A DNA stretch of 31,010 nt from a virus, in the IMG/VR virus record IMGVR_UViG_3300017941_000030, positions 1 to 31,010 of that record. One strand, 5' to 3'. Below the pieces are notes generated by a model, which was not told where the DNA came from, did not search any database, and worked only from the letters and a program-made list of their open reading frames with translations. Shown piece by piece: positions 2,230 to 27,432 of this stretch. Within the stretch, counting starts at the first letter, position 1, and every line of letters begins with the position of its first letter. The position numbers and the translations under genes are program-made.

Positions 2230-2391
2230 ATGTCTAGTACACTAGTGAGAGTGCAAAAATTGGAGTCGCTGCTTGTGATGCTTTCCGACTTCGCTAGAGA
2301 AGAATGTTCAGGAAATGGCAACCGAGCAGCTATAAAGCAAGCGGCGGAAATTGTGCGCGGAGTCCTACATAGCATCCAAAAACCTACTTGA
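2230..2391 (+). CDS. Small plus-strand hypothetical protein
   Basis: A 53-aa ORF starting MSSTLVRVQKLESLL, the only convincing plus-strand gene candidate in the window. It is amphipathic and helical throughout (LESLLVMLSDFAREE, AAIKQAAEIVRGVLHSI). The upstream sequence GGAAAGAGAG is a modest ribosome-binding site. Support comes from context: a plus-strand intrinsic terminator lies about 100 bases after the stop, and the opposing lysis operon has its own terminator beyond that. The frame is open further upstream to 2002, but that part reads as low-quality, Arg-rich sequence, so the ATG at 2230 is preferred. Function is unknown; a small regulator is possible given the divergent control region. 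Confidence 0.45.
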   Translation: MSSTLVRVQKLESLLVMLSDFAREECSGNGNRAAIKQAAEIVRGVLHSIQKPT

Positions 2392-2415
2392 CAACTTATA
2401 CTATCTATGTGCAAT
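2388..2415 (+). promoter_or_regulatory. Candidate plus-strand promoter
   Basis: A perfect -35 hexamer TTGACA (2388-2393) overlaps the stop of the 53-aa ORF. Sixteen bases later is TGCAAT (2410-2415), a fair -10. The intervening sequence is AT-rich. Transcription from here would give an RNA of about 100 bases ending at the terminator at 2494-2527. The -10 is weak, so the promoter is tentative. Confidence 0.35.
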
Positions 2416-2418
2416 ATA

Positions 2419-2527
2419 CCCTTAGTCGCCGTAAAGCCGAGGGCGGGGGTCGGAGGTAGGGCTACAGAGGTAGCGTGTAGGCAGACGACTTAGGGGAAGG
2501 CTTCGAGCAGGGGCCTTCCCTTCTTTT
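2419..2527 (+). ncRNA. Candidate structured small RNA (or structured 3' untranslated region)
   Basis: The stretch has no ORF but a coherent fold. CCCTTAGTCG (2419-2428) pairs with CGACTTAGGG (2486-2495) over 9 of 10 positions and closes the molecule. Inside are CCGA/TCGG (2437-2453) and a perfect GCTAC-AGAG-GTAGC hairpin (2461-2474). It ends in an intrinsic terminator, and a TTGACA -35 lies just upstream. It may be an independent small RNA or the 3' end of the mRNA for the 53-aa ORF. No known RNA family was recognised. Confidence 0.4.
2494..2527 (+). terminator. Intrinsic terminator, plus strand
   Basis: GGGAAGGC (2494-2501) pairs perfectly with GCCTTCCC (2513-2520) and is followed by TTCTTTT. 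There is no T-tract on the other strand. It therefore terminates rightward transcription and shows that this small region really is transcribed from the plus strand. Confidence 0.8.
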
Positions 2528-2528
2528 C

Positions 2529-2564
2529 AAAAAGGGGGCCACCGCTGAAGATGACGGCAGCCCC
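2529..2564 (-). terminator. Intrinsic terminator of the lysis operon, minus strand
   Basis: On the minus strand GGGGCTGCCG (2555-2564) pairs with CGGTGGCCCC (2535-2544) over 10 positions, two of them G-U, and is followed by CTTTTTG. It lies about 80 bases after the last gene of the lysis cassette. It is 2 bases from the oppositely oriented terminator, so the two transcripts converge here. The rest of 2565-2646 shows nothing clear. Confidence 0.8.
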
Positions 2565-2646
2565 GTATCGAATCCCACTGGCGGCCGCGAAGGAGGTAGA
2601 GACGGCCAATGCCAATGAGGGCTTCCAATATCAAGGAACAAGTCTT

Positions 2647-3162
2647 TCACTTCCAAACCTTGAGTAGCTTCCCGACTTCATAAACGATAGCCACTCCGAC
2701 CCCGACTCCCAGCGTGATACAGCCCACTTTGAGGACGCTTACCTGTATTTCAAGAGCCTTAGCGTGCGCTTGCGCCAGGATGGTAGATTGCGTAGAGGCG
2801 TCCAAATCCGTCTGCAATTGCGCCGATTTGCTTTCTGATGTCGTCACCCGATCCTGCGATTTCTTCAGCGATGCCTGCAAGTCCGCGTTCAAGGCTTCCG
2901 ATATCGCGTTGCTGGCTGTCAATGATTCGTTGTCTGCGCGTAAGCTCTTGGCTGTCTCTTGCAACGATTCCGTTTGCGATGTCAAGCTCGCCATGAAGCT
3001 GTCGAAGTTCTGAGGCAAGCTCTGTGTTATCGGCAGTAGACTTTGCCAAAGAGGTTCGGACTGCGGCAAGATCGGCGTTGAGCTTTGCCCCTGCGCCACG
3101 GGACACCAGATAAATAGCGCCGCCACAAACGATACAGCCAAGCAGAAAACCAATCGTCGCAT
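2647..3162 (-). CDS. Coiled-coil protein with N-terminal signal and C-terminal membrane segment (spanin-like)
   Basis: A 171-aa protein. It has an N-terminal signal sequence (MRRLVFCLAVSFVAALFIW) with a plausible signal-peptidase site after VAQG. A long Ser/Leu/Glu-rich coiled coil follows (about residues 55-135), then a C-terminal hydrophobic segment (about 146-164) with a basic tail. The ATG lies inside the 139-aa gene in the +1 frame, with AAAGGA placed 7 bases upstream. A periplasmic coiled coil anchored at one end is what spanins need. A canonical lipobox is missing (FIWC has Trp at -1), so a u-spanin is not proven. It covers the whole 139-aa gene apart from its first 16 bases. It is last in the operon, before the terminator at 2529-2564. 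Confidence 0.6.
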   Translation of the reverse strand: MRRLVFCLAVSFVAALFIWCPVAQGQSSTPILPQSEPLWQSLLPITQSLPQNFDSFMASLTSQTESLQETAKSLRADNESLTASNAISEALNADLQASLKKSQDRVTTSESKSAQLQTDLDASTQSTILAQAHAKALEIQVSVLKVGCITLGVGVGVAIVYEVGKLLKVWK

Positions 3163-3178
3163 AGTGCCATCCTTTCAT
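2759..3178 (-). CDS. Rz-like coiled-coil inner-membrane or lipoprotein (spanin-like)
   Basis: A 139-aa protein with an N-terminal hydrophobic segment (IGFLLGCIVCGGAIYLV, residues 9-25) followed by a charged coiled coil to about residue 120. This is the layout of an i-spanin such as lambda Rz. LLGC (Cys15) could alternatively act as a lipobox. The ATG overlaps the stop of the preceding small membrane protein (ATGA), so translation is probably coupled. Its Shine-Dalgarno is only GCAGG. Nearly all of it is also read in the +1 frame as the 171-aa protein. Both frames give sensible membrane and coiled-coil proteins, so both are listed. The assignment as spanin rests on topology and neighbours, not on sequence similarity. 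Confidence 0.6.
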   Translation of the reverse strand: MKGWHYATIGFLLGCIVCGGAIYLVSRGAGAKLNADLAAVRTSLAKSTADNTELASELRQLHGELDIANGIVARDSQELTRRQRIIDSQQRDIGSLERGLAGIAEEIAGSGDDIRKQIGAIADGFGRLYAIYHPGASAR

Positions 3179-3369
3179 TTGCCTGCCGCCTGCCCGCTTG
3201 CAATTACATTCGTAGTGAAGTATCCACCCGCTACAAGCGTTACTACACCAAGAAAGGCTCCGAGAACCGTCGCATCGGGTTTGTCAATCTTCAGGATGTA
3301 GATGGCACACAGAATGACCATAGATGCTATTGTACCTACGGCAAGCCAGAACTTTGTCCCTGTATTCAT
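3175..3369 (-). CDS. Small two-helix membrane protein (holin-like)
   Basis: A 64-aa protein with two hydrophobic segments (FWLAVGTIASMVILCAIYIL and VLGAFLGVVTLVAGGYF). The ATG at 3369 is preferred over an in-frame ATG four codons earlier. It overlaps the stop of the enzyme gene as ATGA, and GGAGG lies 5 bases upstream. Its own stop overlaps the next start (ATGA). Size, topology and position between a putative cell-wall enzyme and the spanin-like pair suggest a holin or holin partner. The longer holin-like protein at 3974-4243 is a competing candidate, so one may be an antiholin. Confidence 0.7.
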   Translation of the reverse strand: MNTGTKFWLAVGTIASMVILCAIYILKIDKPDATVLGAFLGVVTLVAGGYFTTNVIASGQAAGK

Positions 3370-3890
3370 ACAATCCTCCATTCACGATTCAATTCAAAGT
3401 CCAGCGGGACAAGCTCTTGAGTCTTTATCCCCGGCCAGGGGTCCCGCCCCGTTGCCCTCACCACAAGCCCCGCAAAGCTCGAACACACCCCCCCGAGATA
3501 CCAGCTCCCGAAGGGAACCCATCCTATCCTGTCCCAGAACCACCGGGTCGGGTACAGGATGGCGTCCACGAGAAGCAGAAAAATATTGTAATGTCTGCGC
3601 AGGTTGACTTGTGTGATTGCCACCTCAAGAGCAGCCTGAATCTCAGCATCACTCCACGGCGCCACGGGCTCCTGAATAGTGTACTCCCCCCATCCGGCGA
3701 TGTCGGCCTGTAAGCTCTCTCGTACTCCGCTCACGGGAAGAAGTTTCCCGGGCTGATGCCATACGGTATCATCGAAGAAAAGTCCCCCGATGAAGATAGC
3801 AACATGCGCGGGGCCACCAGTGATGTACTTGACTGCTTGCCCTACGGGATCCGGGCCAGGGGGAAAAGTGAGAACACTGCCGTCTTTCAC
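3366..3890 (-). CDS. Permuted NlpC/P60 (YiiX-like) papain-fold enzyme, possible endolysin
   Basis: A 174-aa protein with a GTG start in a GTGA overlap with the 28-aa peptide gene. The early motif GGPAHVAIFIGG puts a candidate catalytic His at residue 29. The late motif GGVCSSFAGLVVRATG puts a candidate catalytic Cys at residue 136. His before Cys is the order of circularly permuted NlpC/P60 enzymes, which cleave amide bonds in cell-wall peptides or lipids. The position inside a cluster of small membrane proteins makes it the best endolysin candidate here, since no lysozyme or amidase of a classical family is seen. A role in processing another substrate cannot be excluded. Confidence 0.65.
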   Translation of the reverse strand: MKDGSVLTFPPGPDPVGQAVKYITGGPAHVAIFIGGLFFDDTVWHQPGKLLPVSGVRESLQADIAGWGEYTIQEPVAPWSDAEIQAALEVAITQVNLRRHYNIFLLLVDAILYPTRWFWDRIGWVPFGSWYLGGVCSSFAGLVVRATGRDPWPGIKTQELVPLDFELNREWRIV

Positions 3891-3973
3891 GGCTTCCCCA
3901 TTCTTCCCATGACATAGCCAAGAAGATAGACAACGAGGATGATTAGTAGGGCTTCACCTAGGTCGATGGGCAT
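3887..3973 (-). CDS. 28-aa single-helix membrane peptide
   Basis: A tiny ORF reading MPIDLGEALLIILVVYLLGY followed by a short basic tail: one transmembrane helix with an acidic N-terminus. The ATG follows the previous stop directly (TAAATG), and the TGA overlaps the next GTG (GTGA), so it fills the gap between two lysis genes exactly. There is no strong Shine-Dalgarno, so re-initiation after the upstream gene is the likely mode of translation. A modulator of the holin is possible; that is inference. Confidence 0.6.
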   Translation of the reverse strand: MPIDLGEALLIILVVYLLGYVMGRMGKP

Positions 3974-4243
3974 TTACGTTTTCGTTAATCCGCAGACGAT
4001 TGCGATTGCCACCGCGCCTGCGAAATAGAGAAGTGCAAGAGTCACATCACCCTTGAAGGCGAAGATAATGGAAGTCACGAGGGCTACGACACCGCTTCCG
4101 CGCTTGTAGCTGAACTTGCCTTTCGGGTCGTCGAGGAACTGAGTCCACGCTTCCAGCCATTTCAATGCGGTCCGAATTGCGTCATGGATACTCTTGAAGA
4201 AACCCTTTTTCACAACCGCTTGAAGAGGAACAGGATCACTCAT
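3974..4243 (-). CDS. Holin-like membrane protein
   Basis: An 89-aa protein with an amphipathic N-terminal half (FFKSIHDAIRTALKWLEAW) and two hydrophobic segments in the second half (SGVVALVTSIIFAFKG and VTLALLYFAGAVAIAIVCGL). AGGAGGG lies 4 bases before the ATG. It is the first gene after the terminator at 4262-4293 and begins the probable lysis cassette. Length and topology fit a class II holin. Holins are diverse in sequence, so the call rests on layout. Confidence 0.65.
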   Translation of the reverse strand: MSDPVPLQAVVKKGFFKSIHDAIRTALKWLEAWTQFLDDPKGKFSYKRGSGVVALVTSIIFAFKGDVTLALLYFAGAVAIAIVCGLTKT

Positions 4244-4261
4244 TAAACCCTCCTACTCTAA

Positions 4262-4293
4262 TGAAAAGGGCCGGGAAGACTTTCTCCCCGGCC
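4262..4293 (-). terminator. Intrinsic terminator before the lysis cassette
   Basis: On the minus strand GGCCGGG (4287-4293) pairs with CCCGGCC (4269-4275), with an 11-base loop, followed by CTTTTC. It separates the paralogue operon from the holin-like gene, so lysis genes must be expressed by read-through, by controlled antitermination, or from another promoter. Confidence 0.75.
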
Positions 4294-4324
4294 ACGTCTA
4301 CCGGTTTATCCGGGTGTCTGGGGA

Positions 4325-4366
4325 CTAGTACTTTCCCCGTTTACGACCACGGTGCCTTCTGGGCAT
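4325..4366 (-). CDS. 13-aa Arg-rich mini-ORF (possible leader peptide)
   Basis: Reads MPRRHRGRKRGKY and stop. GGAAGGAG stands 8 bases before the ATG, one of the best ribosome-binding sites in this region, although nothing longer can be translated from it. Five of 13 codons are Arg, including adjacent AGA-AGG. The stop lies 31 bases before the terminator stem. Overlapping hairpins between it and the terminator (4320-4338 and 4301-4313) resemble an attenuator. It may equally be a free-standing nucleic-acid-binding microprotein. Confidence 0.45.
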   Translation of the reverse strand: MPRRHRGRKRGKY

Positions 4367-4389
4367 TGTGCTCACTCCTTCCATAAGAG

Positions 4390-4483
4390 GAGAGACTCGA
4401 ACATCTCTCACCCGCATCTCTGCGGGGCAGCTCGTTACATGACGGCAGGGCCGTCAAGCCTCGAAACCATCGGTCTTAGACCG
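4390..4483 (-). other. Array of four perfect stem-loops in the intergenic leader
   Basis: In minus-strand order there are four hairpins. CGGTC-TAA-GACCG (4471-4483) is centred on the stop codon of the upstream gene. TGACGGC-CCT-GCCGTCA is at 4440-4456, CCCGCA-GAGA-TGCGGG at 4411-4426, and GAGAGA/TCTCTC with loop TGTTCGAG at 4390-4409. The order and the TTCGAG loop recall the arms of a class II tRNA, but no acceptor stem pairs and the loops have wrong sizes. It sits between the last paralogue and the Arg-rich mini-ORF. Confidence 0.5.
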
Positions 4484-5123
4484 ACTGCTCAACGTAGTAG
4501 ATCGCGTAGGTGTACAGAGCCGTGGTCGTCGCAGCCTGCGAGACCAGCGACAGCGCCGAGCCAGGAGGAATGACCAGCATCCCATCGTAGTCTTTGGTGA
4601 TGAGCGAAGGGACGACCGTCGGTGCGCCAGTCCCAAGACCAATGCCGGTGCTGGTGAAGAATACAGGGGCGGCCGTGAAGGTGATGGCGATAGGCGCCCA
4701 CTTCACCGCTCCCACTTTTCCACCACCCACCAGACAGTTCGCGGTCGCTACGAGGGTCGCAGTTGCAATCGGGGCACCGGTTGCGATGGTAGCGCCCGCA
4801 GGTGCCAAAGAAACCCACGACAGAGCCGTCGGAGCCGTAGCACCCGATACCCATGCCAGTTCGATCCTCACGATCTCCGCGTTGACTCCCGAGCCCATGG
4901 GGTTCCACAGCGTCGGGATGTTGTTGCCGACGATGACAATCGCCGCACCACCCGTTGCGCTGGAAGCCACGTACATATTCCCACGAGAAGCCTGCTCGTA
5001 AAACTTTCCGTGAGACTCAGCCACGACCATCGAACCGTCGCGGCCGAACCGTGTCAGAGCCGCCGGCGCGTTCCCGTCGGCCATCGTGTTTGTGCCGACG
5101 AATCCATCAAGTCTAAAACCCAT
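4476..5123 (-). CDS. Tandem paralogue 3 of a beta-rich, probable virion protein
   Basis: A 215-aa protein, the most diverged of three adjacent paralogues. Shared landmarks are FVG near residue 8, GRDGS (27-31), HGKFY (38-42), NMYVA (49-53), LWNP-x-GSGV (72-80) and DYDG-x-x-x-x-PP near the C-terminus. The middle (about 90-150) differs most and is rich in Ala, Thr and Gly. AGGAGGAAA lies upstream of the ATG. The beta-rich, low-charge composition and the position after the tail genes suggest a surface or appendage protein of the virion, but I do not recognise a named family. It is followed by a structured region and then the lysis genes. Confidence 0.75.
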   Translation of the reverse strand: MGFRLDGFVGTNTMADGNAPAALTRFGRDGSMVVAESHGKFYEQASRGNMYVASSATGGAAIVIVGNNIPTLWNPMGSGVNAEIVRIELAWVSGATAPTALSWVSLAPAGATIATGAPIATATLVATANCLVGGGKVGAVKWAPIAITFTAAPVFFTSTGIGLGTGAPTVVPSLITKDYDGMLVIPPGSALSLVSQAATTTALYTYAIYYVEQSV

Positions 5124-5186
5124 AGTGAGTTTCCTCCTTAGAGGCTATTGCCTCCGTCTATTGTTTCGACTGACATACGTCAGCCG
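5124..5186 (-). other. Intergenic spacer with two small hairpins
   Basis: The gap between paralogues 2 and 3 holds CTGAC-ATAC-GTCAG (5170-5183), and GAGGC-TATT-GCCTC just before the Shine-Dalgarno of the next gene. Neither has a T-tract, so they look like mRNA processing or stability elements, not terminators. Confidence 0.35.
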
Positions 5187-5855
5187 TTACGCTCCCATAC
5201 CAGGGAACGGATTCTCCACATAGAAAATGTTCACATGGAACGTGGTCACGCTCGCCACCGTTCCCAACATGACAATTGCCTGACCCGGGGGAACGATGAG
5301 AAGCCCATCGTAGTCAACGCGAATCGAGAACGGAGGATACGTCGCTGCACCGAGCCATGTGTCCTGCGAGATTCCCGTCCCCATGAGATACCCGAAGAAA
5401 GCCGCGATCCTCGTATTCGCTACCGAATAGCGAGCTTGCGAGACTTTGCCGCTCCCCCACAGCATGTTGATCGGGGCAATATTGGTGAACGCCGGGAGAG
5501 CACCTGCCGTTCCTGCTTCTGCCCCTGCATATCCTGAGTACCACAGGAAGGCGCTCGGAGTGGCCGGGGTGACTGCGGTTTGCGTCATTTCCAATCGAAT
5601 GACTTCCAGACAAACCCCGCTTCCCATCGGGTTCCACAAGATAGGCACGTTGGTCAACGTGGCCACTGCTTTCATCGTGATGGCCGTGGGGTTGGTGGCA
5701 ACGTACATGTTCCCGCGTTTTGCCGCCTGATAAAACTTCCCGTGGTTTTGAGAGACCACGAGAGACCCGTCTCGCCCCATCCTCAGAGGGATGTCCTCAT
5801 GGGCGCCATCCGTGAGGTTAGAGGGTCCGACAAATGTGTCTACTTTAAGTCCCAT
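5187..5855 (-). CDS. Tandem paralogue 2 of a beta-rich, probable virion protein
   Basis: A 222-aa protein with the same skeleton as its neighbours: FVG, GRDGS (28-31 region), HGKFY (39-42 region), NMYVA and LWNPMGSGV. The second half is closer to paralogue 1 than to paralogue 3: GSGKVSQARYS, LMGTGISQDTW, ATYPPFSIRVDYDGLLIVPP and a C-terminal FYVENPFPG. AGGAGCC lies 5 bases before the ATG. It begins 2 bases after the stop of paralogue 1. Conserved ends with a variable middle suggest a common fold with different exposed loops. A receptor-contacting or decoration role is inference. Confidence 0.75.
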   Translation of the reverse strand: MGLKVDTFVGPSNLTDGAHEDIPLRMGRDGSLVVSQNHGKFYQAAKRGNMYVATNPTAITMKAVATLTNVPILWNPMGSGVCLEVIRLEMTQTAVTPATPSAFLWYSGYAGAEAGTAGALPAFTNIAPINMLWGSGKVSQARYSVANTRIAAFFGYLMGTGISQDTWLGAATYPPFSIRVDYDGLLIVPPGQAIVMLGTVASVTTFHVNIFYVENPFPGMGA

Positions 5856-5857
5856 GG

Positions 5858-6529
5858 TTAGGCTCCTATTGTGCCGGGGTACGCTGACTCGATGAAGAAG
5901 ATGTTGAGGAAATACAAGCCACCCGTCAGCACCGTGGCGGTAATGGAGACCGCCGAGTTAGGGGGAACAAGGAACATCCCGTCGTAATCGATATTGTATG
6001 TCATGGGCGGATAAGTGCTCGCTGCGGTCCAGGTGTCCTGAGAGATTCCCATGCCCATGAGATACGTGGGGGCAGCCGCATAAGCAGTGTCCTGACTGTA
6101 CCTGGCCTTGGATACCCTTCCACTGCCCAGAAGCAAGTTCACGGGCGGGATATTGGTGCCCGCAGTGATGGGGCCTGCTGTCCCGGGTTCTGCTCCTGCC
6201 GGTTGTGTGATCCTCCACTGGAAGGCCGAAGGCGCGTCGGGGGTATCAATCGTCTTGGTGAGCTGCACCTTGACGATCTCGACCATGACCCCGCTTCCCG
6301 AAGGGTTCCACAAACACTGGTGGGGACCCGCCAGCGCCGCTACGAGAAACTGAAGCGGTGTCCCACTGGTGGCAACGAATCCCTGTCCTCGCACACATGC
6401 CTCGTAGAACTTCCCGTGCGATTCGTGGACGATGAGACTCCCATCCCGACCGAACCGGAGGAGATTGTCCTCCCTGCCACCGTCAACGAGAGGGTTGATT
6501 CCTACGAATCCATCAAGTTTAAAACCCAT
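5858..6529 (-). CDS. Tandem paralogue 1 of a beta-rich, probable virion protein
   Basis: A 223-aa protein, first of the three in transcription order. It has MGFKLDGFVG at the N-terminus, GRDGS, HGKFYEA, LWNPSGSGV, GSGRVSKARYS, LMGMGISQDTW, TYPPMTYNIDYDGMFLVPP and a C-terminal FFIESAYPG. The gene follows the 145-aa protein by 10 bases and probably shares its mRNA from the promoter at 7000-7027. No enzyme motif or signal peptide is seen. The three copies are too diverged at DNA level to be a very recent duplication. Confidence 0.75.
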   Translation of the reverse strand: MGFKLDGFVGINPLVDGGREDNLLRFGRDGSLIVHESHGKFYEACVRGQGFVATSGTPLQFLVAALAGPHQCLWNPSGSGVMVEIVKVQLTKTIDTPDAPSAFQWRITQPAGAEPGTAGPITAGTNIPPVNLLLGSGRVSKARYSQDTAYAAAPTYLMGMGISQDTWTAASTYPPMTYNIDYDGMFLVPPNSAVSITATVLTGGLYFLNIFFIESAYPGTIGA

Positions 6530-6539
6530 GTCTCTCTCC

Positions 6540-6977
6540 TTACGTCAGCGAGAGCGCACCGGCGTTCAACATCGACTGTGAGGGGATGTCCGTTCCGAAC
6601 GTCTGGTTCCACATCAAAATGAGCGCCAACAGATACAAGGAGATCGGATCGGCAACGTTGATGATCCCATCCACTTCGATGTTCACCACTCCGCCCTGAT
6701 TGGCGAGCGCAAGGATTTGCTCCCCATACGCGAGGCTTGCATTCAGGATAATCTGAGTCGCAGCCTGGTTGGCCGCAAGGGTCACGCTGTAAATCGAATT
6801 GTTGTAGTTGTCCTGATAGATCGTCAGCGTGACAGGGATGTTCGCAGTGTTCTGCAAGATGAATCCATAAAGGACTATCCCAGTAGGATTTGTCACTTTG
6901 TAGATAGTGTATGGTGTGGGGCTGTTTGCCGCTGGGGCTGCAACAGTTACAAGGGCGGCCGAACCAGTGATAGGCAT
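6540..6977 (-). CDS. Beta-rich hypothetical protein, probable virion component
   Basis: A 145-aa protein, low in charge and rich in Ile, Val, Asn and Thr. Its beta-prone stretches include TIYKVTNPTGIVLYGFILQNT and VTLTIYQDNYNNSIYSVTL. GGAGG lies 9 bases before the ATG at 6977. It is the first gene after a recognisable promoter and leads the operon of three paralogues. No family was recognised. The composition resembles small structural proteins of phage tails or capsid surfaces. Confidence 0.65.
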   Translation of the reverse strand: MPITGSAALVTVAAPAANSPTPYTIYKVTNPTGIVLYGFILQNTANIPVTLTIYQDNYNNSIYSVTLAANQAATQIILNASLAYGEQILALANQGGVVNIEVDGIINVADPISLYLLALILMWNQTFGTDIPSQSMLNAGALSLT

Positions 6978-6999
6978 GTCTCATGTCCTCCTACACAAA

Positions 7000-7027
7000 T
7001 AAATAGCATATATAAGTATAGTTGCAA
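7000..7027 (-). promoter_or_regulatory. Candidate minus-strand promoter for the 145-aa protein and paralogue operon
   Basis: On the minus strand TTGCAA (7022-7027) is followed after 16 bases by TATTTA (7000-7005), preceded by TGC as an extended -10. It lies 23 bases upstream of the ATG in a clearly AT-rich 108-base gap. The element AGTATAGTTGCA (plus strand, 7015-7026) recurs almost unchanged at 2042-2055. Confidence 0.5.
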
Positions 7028-7052
7028 GAGGGTTTCAGTAGCTTAGAGAGAG

Positions 7053-7084
7053 TGTGTCATTTTGGCCGTATGTGTATCATTTTG
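7053..7084 (-). repeat. Two direct repeats upstream of the promoter (operator-like)
   Basis: TGTGTCATTTTG (7053-7064) and TGTATCATTTTG (7073-7084) match in 11 of 12 bases and are spaced exactly 20 bases apart, about two helical turns. They lie upstream of the -35 in the direction of transcription, where activator sites usually are. A third copy of the core, GTCATTTTG, is at 1996-2004. Confidence 0.45.
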
Positions 7085-7085
7085 T

Positions 7086-7544
7086 TTACACTATTTTCAC
7101 AATCACCTTCTGCACGAAGGCCCAGAACTTCCTCATGATATCCGGCCGATTCATGGAATCCCACACCACATTTGAAGCAACGTCCGTGAAAACTTGGCCG
7201 TTGCCCACTACAAAATGAAAACCCCCGATATTGGAGAGGGAACCCTTAAGAATCTCCTTCTCATCCGGGGCGCATTGATAATCGGCTCCGGCTATCCGGC
7301 TAAACTGCAAAGGGAACTTGTCCACGGTCTCATTCGAGGGCAAGGCGGCGAGAAAGCGGGCCCAGGAAAGAACAGAAATATTCTGATTGAGTATTTTCTG
7401 GGTCTGGAGAGACGCGACGAGGGCGTTCACCATTTCGGGAGTGTATTCGTCGGGCATGAGATAGATGCCATCAAGTACCGCGCAGGCATACTTCTCCTCC
7501 TTCAGAGTAAGCCGGGGGTCTGTCTGCCACCATCCGGTTATCAT
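7086..7544 (-). CDS. Hypothetical protein
   Basis: A 152-aa soluble protein starting MITGWWQTDPRLTLKEEKYA. The ATG overlaps the stop of the preceding gene (ATGA). It has a mixed helical N-terminal half (TPEMVNALVASLQTQKIL), a central WARFLAALP segment and a more beta-like C-terminus (GGFHFVVGNGQVFTDVASNVVW). No signal peptide, membrane segment or catalytic motif is visible. It lies between the tail fibre operon and the 145-aa structural protein. Fibre assembly or lysis are possible roles, but nothing in the sequence decides. Confidence 0.65.
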   Translation of the reverse strand: MITGWWQTDPRLTLKEEKYACAVLDGIYLMPDEYTPEMVNALVASLQTQKILNQNISVLSWARFLAALPSNETVDKFPLQFSRIAGADYQCAPDEKEILKGSLSNIGGFHFVVGNGQVFTDVASNVVWDSMNRPDIMRKFWAFVQKVIVKIV

Positions 7545-7870
7545 TCTTCTTTTTCCAAAAGGTCTTCGAGTTTTTCAGGTTTCGCAAATGCGGCTTTGGT
7601 TAGAAATGCCTCGGTCCTCACTTGATCTATGGTAACCGCCCTGACAGCTTCATCGGTCTTCCCGTTCGCCGTGCCTTCTTTTTGGACCTCCGCGATCTTT
7701 GCAATAGCTATTCCCTGTAGCTTGTTAGAGCGAAGAAGACGGAACAGCGCTGCCTTGACGATTATCATTTCTTTCGGGAGTCCCACAATTTTTCTTCCGA
7801 AAGCGATTAGGGTAGCTATCCCGATAACAGTTAGCCCGCTGAGGATTTGACCTATCGTTTCCATCATCAC
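7541..7870 (-). CDS. Small protein with one N-terminal membrane segment
   Basis: A 109-aa protein if the GTG at 7870 is used; ATG codons at 7867 and 7864 are alternatives, and the ribosome-binding site GAGAGGAAA does not decide between them. Residues about 5-25 (IGQILSGLTVIGIATLIAFG) form a likely transmembrane helix. The rest is charged and helical (AKIAEVQKEGTANGKTDEAV and EKLEDLLEKEE). It follows the tail fibre gene, where T7 has its holin gene (17.5). A holin or membrane accessory role is possible, but the better lysis candidates are at 2647-4243. Confidence 0.6.
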   Translation of the reverse strand: MMMETIGQILSGLTVIGIATLIAFGRKIVGLPKEMIIVKAALFRLLRSNKLQGIAIAKIAEVQKEGTANGKTDEAVRAVTIDQVRTEAFLTKAAFAKPEKLEDLLEKEE

Positions 7871-7889
7871 GTTGCTTTCCTCTCTGCTA

Positions 7890-9437
7890 TCATGTGTTAT
7901 ACCCGCTTAAAGAAAACTCGAATTGCAAAGAAACCTTAATTCCATTTGTGAAAATATTATTTCCAAGTCTCTTTGTAAGACCAGATTGTGCCACAGTCCA
8001 AAATCCAAAAGTAATATATCCAACACCTGATTCAATAAGAATAGTTGGGAACCCCGCCGCCCCTGCTGCACTATCAATAACATATGATCCACACAACTGT
8101 ATTGATGGAACAAGGGAAGCATCGCTTATGATACCATTGGGAAGTGACATTCTCGCCTCTACTGCTGTGGGTATTCCCGGAACAAACTGCCCTATAGCTT
8201 CCAATCTGTTTCCCACGATGGTGTAAGTTAAATTAATAGCCGTTACGACGCCGAACCCGGTGAACACTGGCGTGTAGGGCTGCTCAATGTACTTGGAGAG
8301 CGCGGCGTTCCACCCGGCGGTGGCGATTTGCCCACCTGCTCCTCCCGTACCCACGGCAACTATATTGATGGGAGTCGAAGTGATCCCATAGATAGCACCG
8401 CCGAAAGGATTAGTAATAAGACCCCCCCACGTCACACCGTTGTCATAAGAGCGGGCAGTTGTTGTTACAGTGCTTCCTATCTGGAAAATGCCGAAGTTAT
8501 AGCTGATGGAAACAAGCTGTACCACTCCGAATGGATTTGATATAAGAGCGCCCCAGGTTGCTCCATTGTCGATAGACCGTGCGATATTTCCCAAACCACT
8601 ACAGGCCACAAAGACACCATTCCCAAAGGTAACTTTCCTTATGGCATCGACTGCGGGAAATGGATTTGAAACCAACGCCCAAGTCAACCCGAGATCAGTT
8701 GAACGCGCTATTTTACCTCCCAGCCCAACAGCAATAAAGACTCCATTCCCAAACGCAACCCCTTGTATGGTTGATGCCCCAAACGGGTTTGCGATGACTG
8801 TCCAGGTAATTCCAAGGTCCGTGGATCGGGCTATGTTTGGAATCGCCCCGACTGCCACAAAAACTCCATTCCCATACGCAACGGAATTGATAAAACCACC
8901 CGTGCCCAAGATGAAGGCTCCCCAAGTCAACCCACCATCCGTCGACCTTGCCACCCCTGCCGCGTTGCCACCAATGACAAAGACTCCATTCCCATAGGCA
9001 ACACAGAAAATATCTAGTGGGCCAGCAGTGAATGGATTATTAATCAGAGCTCCCCAAGTTGCGCCATTGTCAATCGAGCGCGCCAGTTGCCCCTCTGTTC
9101 CGACCGAAGCCAATACGGTATTTCCATAAGTAACACCCAGCCAACCGGCTCCTAAACCTAGTATGGAGGGATTCGCTATCGGTCCCACCCAGTTCTGCCC
9201 TAGCTGCTGGTAGAATGTTCCACGTGCTCGCGTATCACCAAGAAATCCGGTTGTCTCTAGTTGGCCTATCGCCGCCGTCGCCGCTTGCACCTGGTTAACG
9301 AGGCCCTTGTTTATCTCCCCGCCGACATCTAGGTTGCCGTAGATCCTGACATTGCCCTTGAATTGGTCGAGTTTTACCTTGCCGCCCGAATTGCTAAAGC
9401 CCATGAGTACCACCAAAGGAAGTACGAACCATCTCAT
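7890..9437 (-). CDS. Tail fibre or spike with Asp-box beta-propeller
   Basis: A 515-aa protein. Six Asp-box (BNR) motifs of the form S-x-D-x-G-x-T-W occur at residues 121-128, 165-172, 205-212, 247-253, 288-295 and 330-337. The spacing is 35-44, as in a beta-propeller that may bind or cleave glycans. The C-terminal 130 residues (YTPVFTGFGVVTAINLTYTI, then EARMSLPNGI) match a module common at the ends of phage tail fibres. Residues 1-16 are hydrophobic. An internal ATG at 9404 (MGFSNSGG) would remove them, and is a reasonable alternative start. TAATG overlap with the 1410-aa gene and GGAGG support 9437. Position after the ejection proteins equals that of T7 gp17. Confidence 0.85.
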   Translation of the reverse strand: MRWFVLPLVVLMGFSNSGGKVKLDQFKGNVRIYGNLDVGGEINKGLVNQVQAATAAIGQLETTGFLGDTRARGTFYQQLGQNWVGPIANPSILGLGAGWLGVTYGNTVLASVGTEGQLARSIDNGATWGALINNPFTAGPLDIFCVAYGNGVFVIGGNAAGVARSTDGGLTWGAFILGTGGFINSVAYGNGVFVAVGAIPNIARSTDLGITWTVIANPFGASTIQGVAFGNGVFIAVGLGGKIARSTDLGLTWALVSNPFPAVDAIRKVTFGNGVFVACSGLGNIARSIDNGATWGALISNPFGVVQLVSISYNFGIFQIGSTVTTTARSYDNGVTWGGLITNPFGGAIYGITSTPINIVAVGTGGAGGQIATAGWNAALSKYIEQPYTPVFTGFGVVTAINLTYTIVGNRLEAIGQFVPGIPTAVEARMSLPNGIISDASLVPSIQLCGSYVIDSAAGAAGFPTILIESGVGYITFGFWTVAQSGLTKRLGNNIFTNGIKVSLQFEFSLSGYNT

Positions 9438-12400
9438 TATCCTCCCCCCGAGATTGTAGGATCAAACTGGCCGGTTCCTTCCCCAGAGTCCGCAACCGTT
9501 CCACTCACGTCTTTCAGAATCTTTATCAGCCCCTCGGTCTGACTCCTCACGGCTTTGTATGGGAGTCCTCCACGCATACCCACGAGGTTCAACAGGGTGT
9601 CAACAAACTTCGTACTTGCCTTTGCGCGGGCCACTCTCCCAGCTGCAAACAGCGAACGTATTCCGTAGCCTAGAAGCTCCTCGGCATCTTGCGCTATTTG
9701 GCCAACAACAGTTCCCCCTACCAGAGATGAACCGGAAATATATCCACGCTTCACAATCGCCCCGATATCCATCACAAGGTTTTTCCCGCCGTATACCAGC
9801 CCAGCGATGTCTGCCGCCACATCCCACCATGGGGCTTGCGTCTTTTGCCCGCGCGACTCGCGTACAATGTCCTGGATTCCCGACATGATGAGAGGCTCCG
9901 CCGCAAGAACAATGAGCGCCGTCTTCGCTGCACGGAAGTACGCCCCCGGTGTCCCGATGGCCTCGGCGTCCATGAAAGAGCGGATCATCATGTTCAGATT
10001 GGCGTTAGGTTCGCTCTGGAATGTCGTGAAAAGTCTCGCCCACGTCCCGCCCCTCTGAAGCCCCGATTGGAGCTCGGGCAGGTTTGTCGCGTGGCCATGC
10101 TGGGCAACGAACTGGCCGTATTTGATTGCCGCTTGCATCGTGGCATCGGGATCCCGGAGGAGTGTTGCCAAATCTTCATTCTTCAGCCCCGTGGCGTCCA
10201 TAACCTTCTCGGTGAGCGCCCCGCGCTTGGCCTCACGCAAGAATTGATTGATCCCCGCGTTCATGTCCACTTTCACCGCAGTCTTGGAAGCCCATTTCAA
10301 AGGGGCCATGACAACGTTTCTAATTTTGTGCGCCACCGTCTCTCCCACCGTCCGCGCGCCAAGAACGTCAGAAATCTCTTTCAACGCTCCGCTCTGCTTC
10401 ACGCTGTCGTACCACGAGGAGCCAGCTATAAGAGCCTGCTCAGTACGCCGCGGATGAATCAGAGTCTCCCCTACTCCCTTAATCCAATCGGGGAAAGGAA
10501 CATAGGACAGTGATCGAACGGAAAGAGCAAGGTTCTTCAACACGGGTGAGGGATTGAAACCGAGGAACATAAGCACGCCGCGCTGCCGGTACTTCTCTAC
10601 AATCCTGTCAGCGTGGCTTCCGAACTCACGCATCCGCGCATCGTCCTTCAAGCCCTTCCGCATGGCCTCAAGCATCCGCGTTCCCACACGCTGCTCAATA
10701 GTGTTTGAAATCACCGGATCCCATGCTACTTTCTGCGCGTTGTAAATGGGCTCAGCCATAGCCGTGTAGAGAGAGGCTGAGCGGAGAAGATGGTTGACTT
10801 CCTCGGTGGCACCGGTGAGATACAGCGGTTGCGTTGCCCCCGTTCTCTCGATAGTCATAGAATGATCGGGAGCTGCGCGTATCATGTTTTCCTGCATCCG
10901 GCTTTCAGCTATCAGCTCTTCCACGCTCTTACCTTGAGCCTGCCTCCATACACGCTTACGCCAGTAGTCTTGAAGAACTTCCATAGGGTAGCCGTGCATC
11001 CGCTCGTACACGGCATTCATGGCCTCCCCGGTTTTCTTTGTGAGGTCTTGAATGAGCCCGATGTACTCTTTCTCCTGCGGGGTCACACTATCGACAATCT
11101 GTTGCCACTCCACTTCACTGAGCTTCTGCGGCACAAAGGATTGTTTCTTTGGCCCATAGGGGAAGATGTAGCCCTTAATAAGCGACTGTCTGTTGTTCTC
11201 ATTCTGCCAATGCATGTACACAGACATTGCGGTGTCGCGCCGCATCTCGATTGCTGAACGGGTTCCATCCGAGCGGGTGAATGCCACGTCATATTTCTCG
11301 TTTGCCCATTTGTTGATGTTGATCTTGTTCTGTGTACTCCAATCAAGGAAAGGCTGTTTCCAATCACGTTCAAGTCCAAGACGGGAACTCTCCGATCCAA
11401 GTACGTCTTTCATGAACTGAAAAACCTTGCCGCGCTCGCCCAGCTTGTCAATTGCGGACCATAGCATGTCTTGATGCCCGAGGGCAGAGAACAAATCCCA
11501 TATCTTCGGTAGCCTTTCGGCAAGGCGTTCTTTGAACTGAGGAAACTCCCGGATGGTGTCTCCCACCACAGCGTCATGGCCTTTCACAAATTGGTCAAAT
11601 TGCTGGCGGGCTTCAGCAAGGGCTATCACCTGATCTCCCCGGCGAAGCGACTGACCATACTGTTCAAGATGTTTCAAGTGCATAAGACCGTCCCTGACGT
11701 TTTGCAGTTCTTCGCGCGTAAGGTCGCGCCAGTTTCTCTTTTCAAGATCGCGTATGCGCTGAAGGTCACGCGCGGGGAAAGCATGATCGGGGTGAGCCTG
11801 TATCTCATCGGCAAGAGTCGCAAGTCCTTCCATGGTCTTCTGAGTATGGCGCACCGCTGAGAAGTCACTCAGAATGGACTCGGCAATCTGTTTCACGGGA
11901 ATCTTTACCGTTTCACTCCCGCCTTCAATTGACCGGTCATATGTGATTTCAGTCGGCCACTTGTACCCTCTAAGTCCATTGAGATCCGCAATGTTCTTCC
12001 TGACACTGACCTTTGCCTTTTCGGTGATCTTATATGTCAAGAGATGAGAGCGGCCTTCCGTGATTGCCTTTTCAACTCGATTTCGTGCGGTCTCCCGTTG
12101 TGTCCTCAGTTTTTCAAGAGTCGCCTGCTCTCGATCTGTGAGCTTGGCTACCTTGCTCTGCAATCCCTCGATCTCCACGTTGAGGTTCTTGATTTCCGGG
12201 TCTTGAAGGTCGCGCTGCTCTACGGATTGAGTCTCACGGTCAAGTTGCTCGCCTTCCTTCTCACTCAAGCGCAGAACATCACCCACAAGGGGATTCTCCG
12301 GAGTGACTTCCGCAAGACGTTCGGGTTCCAGTACAACCTGCCGCTTCAAGTCCGCCGCGTTTGTTTCTTCTCTCTGTAGTTTTTCTTCTATCGCCGCTTT

Positions 12401-13669
12401 CTCTTCGGGCTTAGCTGTCTTCAACTGCTCGCGCAGACTCTTGAGATTTTCAACGGACCGCGCCGCTTCCTCTCCCAAAGCAGTCTTTCTCTCCGCGATA
12501 CTCTGCCGCGCTTCTTTGGTGAGCTCAACTTTCTGCTGTGCGTCGGCAAGTTGCAATTCAGGATTATCTTGCTTGATGGCATCTCGGACGACTTTTGAAA
12601 GAATGTCTTCAGTGGCAAGCCTTCGATTCTCTCCCATCACACCGGGCATGGCCATGATGCCGCCTATAGTCCCCTGAACGCCTGCCGCTGTGATCCACTG
12701 AGATAAAATCTCTTTCACCCCGGCATGTGTAAGAGTTGTACCGTCCACACGATTGCTTAGTTCCTTCGCGCTTTCCTCGATCACCGTGGAAGCTACGCCA
12801 TTGGCAAGACCGTATGCAGCTTGTTCTGTAGCCGCTGTTCCCCACCGGAGTACCGTGTTTGCAATAACCGCCCCTACCTTGCCGTTGAGTAATGCTTTCT
12901 GCGCGCCTTCGATGAGAGCGCCCTCGGTGATCTGTTTCACGCCCGGGAGCCTTCCGATCTGGACAAAATTAAGTGCTGTGACTATAGCTCCCAGAGAACC
13001 AACAGCCACACGCCGTATCGTTGGATTCATAGGATGGCCCTGCTCATCTTTGAAACTGAGCAAAGCACGATTTAGAGAACCCATGAGCTGACCGAAGTAT
13101 TCTTTTGCGGCGGGATATTCTCCTATCAATCCACCTACCGCACTTCCCGTCGGCCCCATGATAAGCATCCCTATCCCCGCTCCAACCTGACCACCGATCA
13201 TCCCTTCGAGACCAGCTTTCAATTGGAATCCAAGCCCGACAAGAGTATCAATTACTCCTTTAGGGAATGCTGCTATTTGCTTTTCGGGTGAGGGAAGTGA
13301 CTTGCCAAGCTCATCCATCTGCTTTTTTGCTTCCTCATCTCCCAGGTATTCACGTGCCGCAAGTTGATTCATCTGGCGTTCGATAGGAATAGCCTTGATG
13401 GTGTTTGAAAACTTCTCCCATACAGAAGCAGGTTTTTCGATCTTGCCATACAAGTGTTCAGAAAGCGCATCTGAGTTCTCGTAGAAAAATGAAGGTGAAA
13501 TCCCGGTAGCCTCCGAAAAATGTCCGGCAAGATTGAGCCTCGCCTGTACTTGCGGAGGATCAGGTGAATTCTGAGAGAGTATCGCACGTACTTTTTCAGG
13601 ATTAGATGGAGGGGGTTCGGGATTAAAGTCGGGAGGGGGGGCGGGATTGAAATCTACATTGTCTGCCAT
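9437..13669 (-). CDS. Large internal virion (DNA ejection) protein
   Basis: A 1410-aa protein, the largest in the window. It has a Pro-rich N-terminus and Gly-rich hydrophobic stretches at about 137-190 (GMIGGQVGAGIGMLIMG and GSAVGGLIGEY). Long coiled-coil regions at about 350-570 are dense in Glu, Lys and Gln. The C-terminal region contains WARLFTTFQSEPNANLNMMI and a hydrophobic AALIVLAAEP-like segment. Size, composition and order (after gp13-, gp14- and gp15-like genes, before the fibre) correspond to T7 gp16, which enters the host envelope during DNA ejection. I see no clear transglycosylase motif. The C-terminal part resembles domains of large polyvalent phage proteins, from memory. Confidence 0.75.
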   Translation of the reverse strand: MADNVDFNPAPPPDFNPEPPPSNPEKVRAILSQNSPDPPQVQARLNLAGHFSEATGISPSFFYENSDALSEHLYGKIEKPASVWEKFSNTIKAIPIERQMNQLAAREYLGDEEAKKQMDELGKSLPSPEKQIAAFPKGVIDTLVGLGFQLKAGLEGMIGGQVGAGIGMLIMGPTGSAVGGLIGEYPAAKEYFGQLMGSLNRALLSFKDEQGHPMNPTIRRVAVGSLGAIVTALNFVQIGRLPGVKQITEGALIEGAQKALLNGKVGAVIANTVLRWGTAATEQAAYGLANGVASTVIEESAKELSNRVDGTTLTHAGVKEILSQWITAAGVQGTIGGIMAMPGVMGENRRLATEDILSKVVRDAIKQDNPELQLADAQQKVELTKEARQSIAERKTALGEEAARSVENLKSLREQLKTAKPEEKAAIEEKLQREETNAADLKRQVVLEPERLAEVTPENPLVGDVLRLSEKEGEQLDRETQSVEQRDLQDPEIKNLNVEIEGLQSKVAKLTDREQATLEKLRTQRETARNRVEKAITEGRSHLLTYKITEKAKVSVRKNIADLNGLRGYKWPTEITYDRSIEGGSETVKIPVKQIAESILSDFSAVRHTQKTMEGLATLADEIQAHPDHAFPARDLQRIRDLEKRNWRDLTREELQNVRDGLMHLKHLEQYGQSLRRGDQVIALAEARQQFDQFVKGHDAVVGDTIREFPQFKERLAERLPKIWDLFSALGHQDMLWSAIDKLGERGKVFQFMKDVLGSESSRLGLERDWKQPFLDWSTQNKININKWANEKYDVAFTRSDGTRSAIEMRRDTAMSVYMHWQNENNRQSLIKGYIFPYGPKKQSFVPQKLSEVEWQQIVDSVTPQEKEYIGLIQDLTKKTGEAMNAVYERMHGYPMEVLQDYWRKRVWRQAQGKSVEELIAESRMQENMIRAAPDHSMTIERTGATQPLYLTGATEEVNHLLRSASLYTAMAEPIYNAQKVAWDPVISNTIEQRVGTRMLEAMRKGLKDDARMREFGSHADRIVEKYRQRGVLMFLGFNPSPVLKNLALSVRSLSYVPFPDWIKGVGETLIHPRRTEQALIAGSSWYDSVKQSGALKEISDVLGARTVGETVAHKIRNVVMAPLKWASKTAVKVDMNAGINQFLREAKRGALTEKVMDATGLKNEDLATLLRDPDATMQAAIKYGQFVAQHGHATNLPELQSGLQRGGTWARLFTTFQSEPNANLNMMIRSFMDAEAIGTPGAYFRAAKTALIVLAAEPLIMSGIQDIVRESRGQKTQAPWWDVAADIAGLVYGGKNLVMDIGAIVKRGYISGSSLVGGTVVGQIAQDAEELLGYGIRSLFAAGRVARAKASTKFVDTLLNLVGMRGGLPYKAVRSQTEGLIKILKDVSGTVADSGEGTGQFDPTISGGG

Positions 13670-15219
13670 TTTTTACCATCCCACCAAAGAATAGATCCCG
13701 ACTTAGAAACCTGATATGTCTTTCCATCCGAACCGTTATAATAGGTAGTTCCATTTGCGATCTGAGTTCCCAATATTGATATGTTCTTCAACTTACTTAC
13801 TAATTGTTGAGGATAAGAAGGAGTCTGAGGACCGAAAGGGAATCCCTCCAACCCGCCTGGTGTTAAGGGAAGTGTCTCCCCCGCTGCTACCGCAGACATT
13901 GCCTGACGCCGTGCGGTGTAGTAGGAATCGAGATTCTTCAAGACTTTGTTGACGGCCTGGTTCTTGTAGAATTGCGCTTGGCTTGAAAGTTCCTTATCAG
14001 TAGCGTCCATATTGTCAGCGGCCCATGAGCGATAGTATCCGAGAGCTGTCTGCATTCCTTTGATGTCTTCAGGAGTCATGTTCTTCGGGTCAGTCTTGAA
14101 AACCTCTTCATATGCTTTCACACGTGCCTTCACCCGTGGGCTCACCGCCGCAAGTACCTGCTTGTATTGGGTTGCGCTTATTTCATGTTTCGCCATCAAG
14201 TCCCGTGCGTTATCTATGATGACAGATTGATCTATGTTCTCGTTTGTGGAGTCGGCAAGAAGACCATCAAAAACAGAATTGTCTTTCTCTGCCGCCTTTT
14301 TGTCTGCTCTTAGTGATCGTATTTCACTTTCATAATATCCCGCCCACTTCCTGTCGCGCTCCCCTTTCTCCTTCCCCACCCATTTTCCGCGTGACTGTTC
14401 GATGATCGCCTTGAACTCAGGCAAGCCTGCATCTCCCAGCATTACCTTCGAATACACATCCCCGAGAGGAGCTTCCAATTTGTCGTTAGTCCGCTTGTCC
14501 TCAGAATCCTGAACAGTTTCAAGATGCGTGACACGAGTATCTATTTGCTCGACTTCCACGTCTGAAAGTCCCAAAGTATTTTTGGGGTCGGCAAGAAAGT
14601 CATGTGCTGCCTGAAAGTTTGGCAAGCCATCGGCGGTTTTTTGACGGATGAGAGCGAATGCACCATGAGTCGCCGCAGCTTGGTCTATCTTGTGGTCCCA
14701 GTCTTTGTAGTTAGCCTCTGCCGTCGCCTTATCTACGAGATTGCTTCTCACCAATGGATCTTGAAGAACTCTAAGTTTCGCTTTTCCTTCATCAGCGGAC
14801 AGGGTACCCGACACAACGGACTGCATCGTATCGTTGATGCTCTTGTTCGCAGTCCCGATTGTCTCGTTGGCACGGCCATTCCACTGTGCCTGGCCTACCT
14901 TCTCCATCAGGGTATCACGCTGACTCATCCACCACTGCTGAAGGGCCTGCTTGGCATGGCCGTTCGTGGCCATCTTGTCGATTATCTGGTTCTGCTCATC
15001 GATGAACTTCGCACCCTTTTCCTGATAACTCTTCCAGTCGGGATCACTTTGAAGATTAAGAGAGAAGTCGTTTACACTTCGGCGTAGACTTTCCTGCACG
15101 TTGTTGAACTGCGTCGTTGCCTCTGCCGCGTACAGTTTATCGGCTATCGTGAAAAAGAGATCGGTGACGGCGTTGCCCGCCTCCATGATTGCGCTGGGTG
15201 AGGGGCGGAAGTCACTCAT
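13654..15219 (-). CDS. Internal virion protein, coiled-coil, gp15-like by position
   Basis: A 521-aa, Lys/Asp/Gln-rich and largely helical protein (for example NVQESLRRSVNDFSLNLQSD and SLRADKKAAEKDN). There is no membrane segment. The C-terminal 40 residues are different, with GTTYYNGSDGKTYQVS and a Trp-rich end. It starts at a TGATG overlap and its end overlaps the 1410-aa gene by 16 bases. Between the gp14-like and gp16-like genes it occupies the place of T7 gp15, a core protein that forms a periplasmic tunnel with gp16. Assignment is by order and composition, not motif. Confidence 0.65.
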   Translation of the reverse strand: MSDFRPSPSAIMEAGNAVTDLFFTIADKLYAAEATTQFNNVQESLRRSVNDFSLNLQSDPDWKSYQEKGAKFIDEQNQIIDKMATNGHAKQALQQWWMSQRDTLMEKVGQAQWNGRANETIGTANKSINDTMQSVVSGTLSADEGKAKLRVLQDPLVRSNLVDKATAEANYKDWDHKIDQAAATHGAFALIRQKTADGLPNFQAAHDFLADPKNTLGLSDVEVEQIDTRVTHLETVQDSEDKRTNDKLEAPLGDVYSKVMLGDAGLPEFKAIIEQSRGKWVGKEKGERDRKWAGYYESEIRSLRADKKAAEKDNSVFDGLLADSTNENIDQSVIIDNARDLMAKHEISATQYKQVLAAVSPRVKARVKAYEEVFKTDPKNMTPEDIKGMQTALGYYRSWAADNMDATDKELSSQAQFYKNQAVNKVLKNLDSYYTARRQAMSAVAAGETLPLTPGGLEGFPFGPQTPSYPQQLVSKLKNISILGTQIANGTTYYNGSDGKTYQVSKSGSILWWDGKKWQTM

Positions 15220-16001
15220 CAGTAGTAATACGGCTGACCACTAGCCGTCTCCCAGGAAGACCCGCCGCTTGCACCCGCAGCTCCGCCCATGGCCGATGTG
15301 GGATTCCAGAACTTTGAAATCGCCGCAGTGCCCCACTGGACCGTGCTGGTGAATTGAGAAAGCCAGATATTTGATTCCGTCGTCTGAAGCTGCTGATTTA
15401 TCCCCAATGTCTGATTCGAAAGATTCAAGAGCCCCGCATTGTAAGAGGCGAGATTCATTTCAACTTGTGATTTGTCGAGAAGGGTCTGCTGAGTTTCTGC
15501 GGCTCCTATGATATGTTCTCCGGCTTGTTTCTGTGTGGCGAGTTTGATACCTGCCGTACCCTGGCCCGTTTTTATTCCACGGGCGGCAAATGATGCGCTG
15601 ATAGAACCTTCAGCAGACAACTCCTGTTCCTTCAGTCCGAGAATCTGCTCAAGAGACTGCTGCTCGTAAGCCACCTGCGCAAGATTGGCAGCCCGCGCCC
15701 TCTCCTGAATTATGTCCGTGCCATAAGGGACGGTTTGCGGACCGGTCCCGCCGGGCGCATTTCCTCCGGCCGCCGATACATCTGGAAGGGTGGTCGTACT
15801 TCCCGCCGTGGGAACTCCCTGCCCGCCGGGTGCCACCTGCCCCAATTGCTCGGCAGCTTGTTTTTGTGCGACTTGGCTTGCCTCGTTGGCAGCAACAAGG
15901 TTTGTCGCACCCATCACAGATAAGCCGAGAGACCAACCACCAGTTACAGGCGCGAGTACAACCCCCGCGACAACTTCTACGATGTCAAGTACTTGGCCCA
16001 T
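15219..16001 (-). CDS. Internal virion protein, gp14-like by position
   Basis: A 260-aa protein. The N-terminus is hydrophobic (VLDIVEVVAGVVLAPVTGGWSL, residues 4-26). A Gly/Pro-rich linker follows (55-95), then Ala/Gln-rich helices (about 100-220) and a small-residue tail ending YYY. A hydrophobic first segment with Ala/Gln helices resembles gp14-type ejection proteins, which insert in the outer membrane. The start lies 17 bases inside the gp13-like gene and the stop overlaps the next ATG (TGATG). Confidence 0.7.
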   Translation of the reverse strand: MGQVLDIVEVVAGVVLAPVTGGWSLGLSVMGATNLVAANEASQVAQKQAAEQLGQVAPGGQGVPTAGSTTTLPDVSAAGGNAPGGTGPQTVPYGTDIIQERARAANLAQVAYEQQSLEQILGLKEQELSAEGSISASFAARGIKTGQGTAGIKLATQKQAGEHIIGAAETQQTLLDKSQVEMNLASYNAGLLNLSNQTLGINQQLQTTESNIWLSQFTSTVQWGTAAISKFWNPTSAMGGAAGASGGSSWETASGQPYYY

Positions 16002-16434
16002 CTTCTCTTACCCATGCATAAAGCACCTGGTCTTGACCATGCGGGCCGTATTTCCTCATCACCCCCTCGCGCTTCATCCCCATCCATTCAAGGTACTTAT
16101 GATCCTGTCCCCACTGTCCAGGAGCAAGAGCCTGTAGACGGTCAAGATGATGCTGTTCAATCCAGCGATGCATCTGCGCCTTCAGTTCTTTGTGTACATG
16201 CGGCCCCGCTCGTTTTGAGACCCGAAGCCATATCGACCCCGACCCCTCGCAAATGATCCTTATCCCCCCACAGGCAATGGCCTCTCCGTCAATGAGAGTA
16301 AGACATGGGCCCGCCTCTTTCGATTTCTTCCCGAGTTCCAATAGATCAAGCCCTTCTTGCTCACTCATCACATGCTCATTCACATCCATCACAAATAGCA
16401 TGTGTTCAGGCTCGAAAGGAACAAAGTGCATCAT
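15985..16434 (-). CDS. gp13-like protein with acetyltransferase-type fold
   Basis: A 149-aa protein starting at an ATGA overlap with tail tubular B. A GNAT-like layout is visible: a central strand region GPCLTLIDGEAIACGGIRII, then VSKRAGPHVHKELKAQMHRW and a C-terminal YLEWMGMKREGVMRKYGPHG, typical of the end of acetyltransferase folds. T7 gp13 relatives (DUF2833 family, as recalled) have this fold and lie between gp12 and gp14 exactly as here. In T7 gp13 is needed for morphogenesis. Whether it binds acetyl-CoA is not shown by the sequence. Confidence 0.75.
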   Translation of the reverse strand: MMHFVPFEPEHMLFVMDVNEHVMSEQEGLDLLELGKKSKEAGPCLTLIDGEAIACGGIRIICEGSGSIWLRVSKRAGPHVHKELKAQMHRWIEQHHLDRLQALAPGQWGQDHKYLEWMGMKREGVMRKYGPHGQDQVLYAWVREDGPST

Positions 16435-19241: not shown

Positions 19242-19250
19242 CGGTGCCTC

Positions 19251-19280
19251 CTAAAGAGGGGCGAGCTGAGAGCCCGCCCC
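19251..19280 (-). terminator. Hairpin between head and tail genes (weak terminator or processing site)
   Basis: On the minus strand GGGGCGGGCT (19271-19280) pairs with AGCTCGCCCC (19258-19267) over 9 of 10 positions, followed by TCTTTAGG. The T-tract is short and runs straight into the Shine-Dalgarno of tail tubular A. Partial termination after the abundant head proteins is likely, as after T7 gene 10. Confidence 0.55.
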
Positions 19281-19289
19281 ATTCATTGA

Positions 19290-19733: not shown

Positions 19734-19744
19734 TGCGATCTCCT

Positions 19745-20839: not shown

Positions 20840-20860
20840 AGGGGTACTCCCCCCAGCGGA

Positions 20861-21739: not shown

Positions 21740-21784
21740 TGTTATTTCCTTCTCCTAAAGATAGCATACAAGTCAAGTCTCATT

Positions 21785-24070: not shown

Positions 24071-24073
24071 GCC

Positions 24074-25047: not shown

Positions 25048-25048
25048 G

Positions 25049-26656: not shown

Positions 26657-26669
26657 AAAGCCGGTCGCC

Positions 26670-27426: not shown

Positions 27427-27432
27427 ACCTAT

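Follow-up and report, generated by a model that had tools for sequence, protein, structure and literature searches.

Small RNAs encoded by phages and small RNAs derived from the 3'-UTRs of mRNAs are known kinds of transcript (PMC4104026, PMC12197685, PMC13250501). AgvB and AsxR, encoded by enterobacterial prophages, are examples for which expression, Hfq binding and targets have been shown (PMC4104026). Comparative genomics has also brought to light structured RNA motifs in phages, such as the c4 antisense RNA (RF01695), manA and wcaG (PMC2864571). In uncultivated phages, structured RNAs are largely uncharted.

Here we analysed an element beside the lysis genes of a phage for whose group the collections searched contained no close relative in culture. 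The best reading of the compared sequences is a plus-strand structured RNA of roughly 110 bases that ends in an intrinsic terminator, with two known members. In our view, this candidate is more likely a functional small RNA than spacer DNA.

Results

The window and its relative

The window, that is the whole stretch of DNA analysed, is a linear virus record of 31,010 bases, a phage contig with its structural genes (TerL, head-tail adaptor, major head and tail proteins) on the minus strand. Its TerL is about 23-28% identical to those of known phages. A search with the neighbouring protein encoded at 3366-3890 recovered a sole close relative, IMGVR_UViG_3300044800_000029 (G001), and the family behind all comparisons reported here consists of two members, the window and G001. 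The two are 97-99.7% identical across most late genes (3366-8327, 14330-21758, 21804-25058 and 25049-28283) and unrelated to the left of 3366, except for one island (Table 1).

On the upstream side of this island, G001 carries an MT-A70 methyltransferase and a 217-aa gene, and the window two small plus-strand ORFs. Downstream, a GTA-type holin in G001 stands against an overlapping ORF pair in the window, one member of which is weakly spanin-like. Since the island was kept while both flanks are non-homologous, the element has survived the exchange of modules on either side. It starts 28 bases (window) or 26 bases (G001) past the stop codon of a co-directional upstream gene, and in both phages the genes on either side of it converge.

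The earlier note had given the element a 140-base extent (2388-2527), which captures it in part; the conserved unit is wider, about 2420-2603. The same note placed it against every neighbouring operon, which is wrong on the left, where the 58-aa and 53-aa ORFs share its direction. Its description of a gap free of ORFs holds, as we found no convincing ORF inside the element. Furthermore, no small ORF within the element is common to both phages, hence there is no conserved leader peptide, and a leader-peptide attenuator was rejected on this ground. In G001 an open frame of 169 aa crosses the element (6657-7166 of locus L002, on its minus strand); as stops and indels break it in the window, it was dismissed as spurious.

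Table 1. Features of the element and its surroundings (window positions)
Feature	Position	Strand	Remarks
58-aa ORF and 53-aa ORF	2051-2227 and 2230-2391	+	Upstream of and co-directional with the element; missing in G001
TTGACA, possible -35	2388-2393	+	Covers the TGA stop (2389-2391) of the 53-aa ORF
P1 5' arm	2419-2428	+	Pairs with 2486-2495
Conserved island	2420-2603	+	G001 1308-1487; blastn, 84%; both flanks non-homologous
G-rich core CGAGGGCGGGGGTCGGAGGTA	2438-2458	+	Mostly unpaired; 20 of 21 bases identical in G001; contains SD-like GGAGGU
Inner hairpin GCTAC-AGAG-GTAGC	2461-2474	+	2461-2465 with 2470-2474; covariation with G001
P1 3' arm	2486-2495	+	AGGG 2492-2495 doubles as terminator stem; CGAC 2486-2489 alternatively pairs with GUCG 2449-2452
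50 consecutive bases identical in window and G001	2486-2535	+	P1 3' arm, terminator, T and A tracts
Intrinsic terminator	2492-2527	+	13-pair stem 2492-2504/2510-2522, then CTTTT
Terminator of the convergent leftward lysis operon	2535-2564	-	Also retained in G001
Possible small ORF	2551-2667	+	38 aa; 27 aa in G001; directly past the terminator; candidate coding

Several other features were observed along the window. Two minus-strand ORFs at 2647-3162 (171 aa) and 2759-3178 (139 aa) overlap almost totally in different frames; the product of the latter gives the weak Rz-like spanin match, and the pair resembles an embedded Rz/Rz1 arrangement. Three tandem paralogues of 215-223 aa, about 40-51% identical, occupy 4476-6529 on the minus strand, and an alignment search of viral contigs gave no relative of them beyond G001. 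The tail/fibre region at 9437-14330 diverges from G001 between blocks of 97-98% identity, with a 1410-aa protein only 24% identical; it is a swapped module, perhaps with a role in host recognition. Positions 1-50, at the end of the record, consist of GC-rich imperfect repeats (ggcggcgtaggcggcgtcgg), across which a minus-strand reading frame continues past the record end.

Covariation of the inner hairpin and strand preference of the model

In G001 the inner hairpin reads GTGCC-ATATG-GGCAC, so that three consecutive pairs of the 5-pair stem have changed in a compensatory manner; a fourth compensatory pair lies beyond a bulge (2459/2476, G-U in the window and U-A in G001). Stems of five or more pairs with three or more compensatory ones arose in 0.025% of column shuffles of the 79-column core; in shuffles constrained to keep the pattern of changed versus unchanged columns, 0.1% reached three. 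A cruder control, in which pairs were dealt on two rows, reached the observed covariation in 33 of 500 shuffles, as is to be expected with so few sequences.

On the plus strand, every one of the 24 pairs in the structure model is intact in the window and in G001, against 21 and 20 on the minus strand. This preference arises because the wobble changes (C-G to U-G) pair on the plus strand only. A minus-strand RNA was consequently rejected, 3 or 4 of the 24 pairs turning into C-A mismatches. With the given pairing 100% of cells pair, compared with 34-63% once the partners were slid.

Two internal hairpins had been claimed for the element, of which the one described above is well supported, but the second finds no support in the comparison. 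When upstream sequence was included in the window RNA (start at 2388 or 2392), a different fold was favoured and the full-length probability of the inner hairpin was 0.2.

The closing helix and its competition with the terminator

The closing helix (P1) put forward in the earlier note is present with 9 of 10 Watson-Crick pairs and a T-T mismatch at 2423/2491. However, taken alone it is near chance: among dinucleotide shuffles of the 140-base stretch, 8.5% contain a helix of this quality that encloses 30 bases or more. Nor is it formed in the predicted full-length RNA, where its pair probability is at most 0.02 in both phages. G001 keeps the helix with C-G to U-G changes at 2419/2495 and 2427/2487, and no compensatory change in P1 separates the two phages. 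The covariation check proposed in the earlier note, applied to the one relative found, speaks for the inner hairpin, whereas the closing helix shows wobble-only changes. The folding energy of the window element is ordinary (z about -1.1 to -1.2); that of G001 reaches a z of -2.7. The window sequence by itself would thus hardly convince, and the candidate draws more of its support from the relative.

The strong terminator, also claimed before, was found as described, with its 13-pair stem and T tract (Table 1). In both phages its stem and P1 are mutually exclusive through four bases (2492-2495), and keeping P1 comes at a price of about 3 kcal/mol (-40.5 vs -43.3 in the window, -46.4 vs -49.4 in G001). 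For a growing chain that begins at P1, and as long as the terminator stem is not yet nearly complete, this helix has a probability of 0.74-0.91 in the window and 0.88-0.98 in G001; once the stem is complete, the value is at most 0.02 in both phages. For a window chain starting upstream, at 2388 or 2392, it is only 0.13-0.59 before termination. The folding model thus predicts that, in both phages, P1 forms ahead of the terminator and then yields to it.

Sequences at either end of the element

On the start side, the TTGACA proposed as a -35 is there, but it has no convincing -10 and includes the stop codon at which the 53-aa ORF ends. Its counterpart in G001 is TTGACT, again over a stop codon (30 vs 32 bases ahead of CCTTAG). 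A consensus promoter scan returned no sigma-70-like promoter at the element, TTGACA being missed because no acceptable -10 lies downstream. We also observed a repeat, ATTTATGTGCTAT / ATCTATGTGCAAT (85%), at 2066-2078 and 2403-2415, each copy at most about 15 bases from a TTGACA; these repeats are possibly a common operator or promoter feature.

Past the terminator, the plus strand holds no larger gene. The possible small ORF has an SD-like AAGGAGG upstream in G001 and a 3-base in-frame gap between the two phages. Conservation of its frame against shuffles gave p 0.17, and another frame, lacking a start codon, did better at p 0.003. Its start sits inside the loop of the opposite, minus-strand terminator, and its product has no phage homologue, with matches only at E 4-5. 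Based on the frame statistic and the lack of a phage homologue, we did not accept it as a sure gene.

Searches for further members and known families

No Rfam 15 family reached its gathering threshold, and the matches of both members up to E 10 were all far below gathering. Among known classes, an HDV-like/CPEB3 ribozyme was rejected (window 2523-2579 scored 15.4 bits vs a gathering value of 35, and G001 gave no HDV-type match), as were tRNA and tmRNA, none being reported by ARAGORN.

Pattern scans of viral contigs recovered G001 only, besides the non-member matches L008, L098 and L099, which lie in coding sequence or come without P1 and terminator. Exact-core scans of genome contigs were empty, blastn against phage and plasmid records gave no meaningful match, and a covariance model had zero matches in 48 TerL-related records, many of them fragmentary. 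Searches with neighbouring proteins and the paralogue alignment led to G001 alone or to nothing, and the TerL alignment scan to distant relatives only. Because the pattern scans depend on a nearly exact core and viral records are often fragmentary, this absence of further members is weak evidence.

Discussion

The conservation between unrelated flanks, the compensatory changes, the strand preference and the terminator follow directly from computation; transcription, the 5' end, stability and any target of the RNA are what we infer from them. We propose that the element would be a structured untranslated phage RNA of about 105-140 nt, transcribed from the plus strand and ending at the terminator. 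Given its start 26-28 bases past a co-directional stop codon in both phages, it may form the 3' end of the transcript of any operon placed ahead of it, riding behind whichever rightward gene cassette precedes it. Its 5' end would arise where that mRNA is processed, or at a weak promoter belonging to the element itself. The nascent RNA would close P1 first; completion of the terminator stem would then release the P1 3' arm to the terminator and to GUCG 2449-2452. The stable RNA left behind would comprise the inner hairpin, the terminator and the exposed G-rich core, which may base-pair to C/U-rich stretches of host or phage transcripts, or else be recognised by a protein. In its full form, as a small RNA or 3'-UTR RNA including the handover from P1 to the terminator, we give this explanation slightly less than an even chance.

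The region may instead be merely the shared end of two convergent operons, where back-to-back terminators insulate the rightward cassette from the leftward lysis operon and the structure upstream is incidental, or aids termination and shields the mRNA 3' end. The two terminators (2492-2527 on the plus strand, 2564-2535 on the minus strand) are indeed back to back and both kept, the region is convergent in both phages, and the terminator is the most conserved part. However, a terminator needs neither conservation 70 bases upstream nor compensatory changes nor a core identical at 20 of 21 bases, and terminators seldom retain identical loop and stem sequence. We therefore regard this explanation as somewhat unlikely. 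The small RNA or 3'-UTR reading is preferred because the conservation exceeds what termination needs and no sizeable feature follows on the plus strand. This last point also bears on an attenuator, in which P1 would act as the antiterminator by occupying AGGG 2492-2495 at the foot of the terminator stem, and a ligand, a protein or translation would set readthrough into the small ORF or antisense transcription into the lysis genes. The mutual exclusion over four bases and the energy difference found in both phages would suit such a device, as would the presence of the small ORF downstream in both, with its SD-like sequence in G001 and the in-frame gap. Yet the frame statistics of this ORF favour another, start-less frame, its start falls within the loop of the opposite terminator, and neither a larger gene behind it nor a conserved leader peptide was found, which makes an attenuator improbable in our view.

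A linker acting at the DNA level, at a site of module recombination like the boundary sequences between mosaic phage modules, would account for the swap of both the upstream cassette and the lysis genes (an Rz-like spanin candidate vs a GTA-type holin). It would also fit the retention of the linker only, at 84% against 97-98% in the surrounding late genes. Compensatory and strand-biased changes in a hairpin would be unexpected for a DNA linker, and we judge it very unlikely. Equally unlikely, to our mind, is a bistable switch in which the arm exchange between P1 and terminator lets a signal or protein decide between a stop and an antisense run into the lysis genes, and thereby the timing of lysis.

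Returning to the preferred small RNA or 3'-UTR reading, the alternatives initially offered were a regulatory RNA of the phage or the 3' end of the mRNA of the 53-aa ORF. Hairpin covariation in the relative lends this interpretation partial support, with any regulatory role being putative and a promoter of its own unsupported. Survival amid unrelated genes speaks against an element that serves only as the stable 3' end of a single given mRNA. That the RNA stays constant while both neighbours change points to a function not tied to any single gene beside it. Were it a small RNA or an attenuator next to the lysis genes, it would offer a simple handle on late gene control in this phage group.

Compared with known systems, the element shares with AgvB and AsxR the nature of a short untranslated RNA of a phage genome, and intrinsic termination is common among such small RNAs; it differs in that we found no sequence relation to them and that it is known here from sequence alone. 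Like the c4, manA and wcaG motifs, it was detected via compensatory changes in phage intergenic regions, but it matches no Rfam 15 family. As in antiterminator/terminator attenuators, an upstream helix and the terminator stem have one arm in common, whereas here there is no established downstream gene, no ligand and no leader peptide. With 3'-UTR-derived small RNAs, e.g. CisR (PMC13250501), it would share its making at an mRNA 3' end with the same terminator, except that here the upstream gene varies between phages while the RNA stays. Altogether, judging from the comparison of the two phages, the element is a new two-member family of a known kind, that of phage or 3'-UTR-derived small RNAs, with a candidate function.
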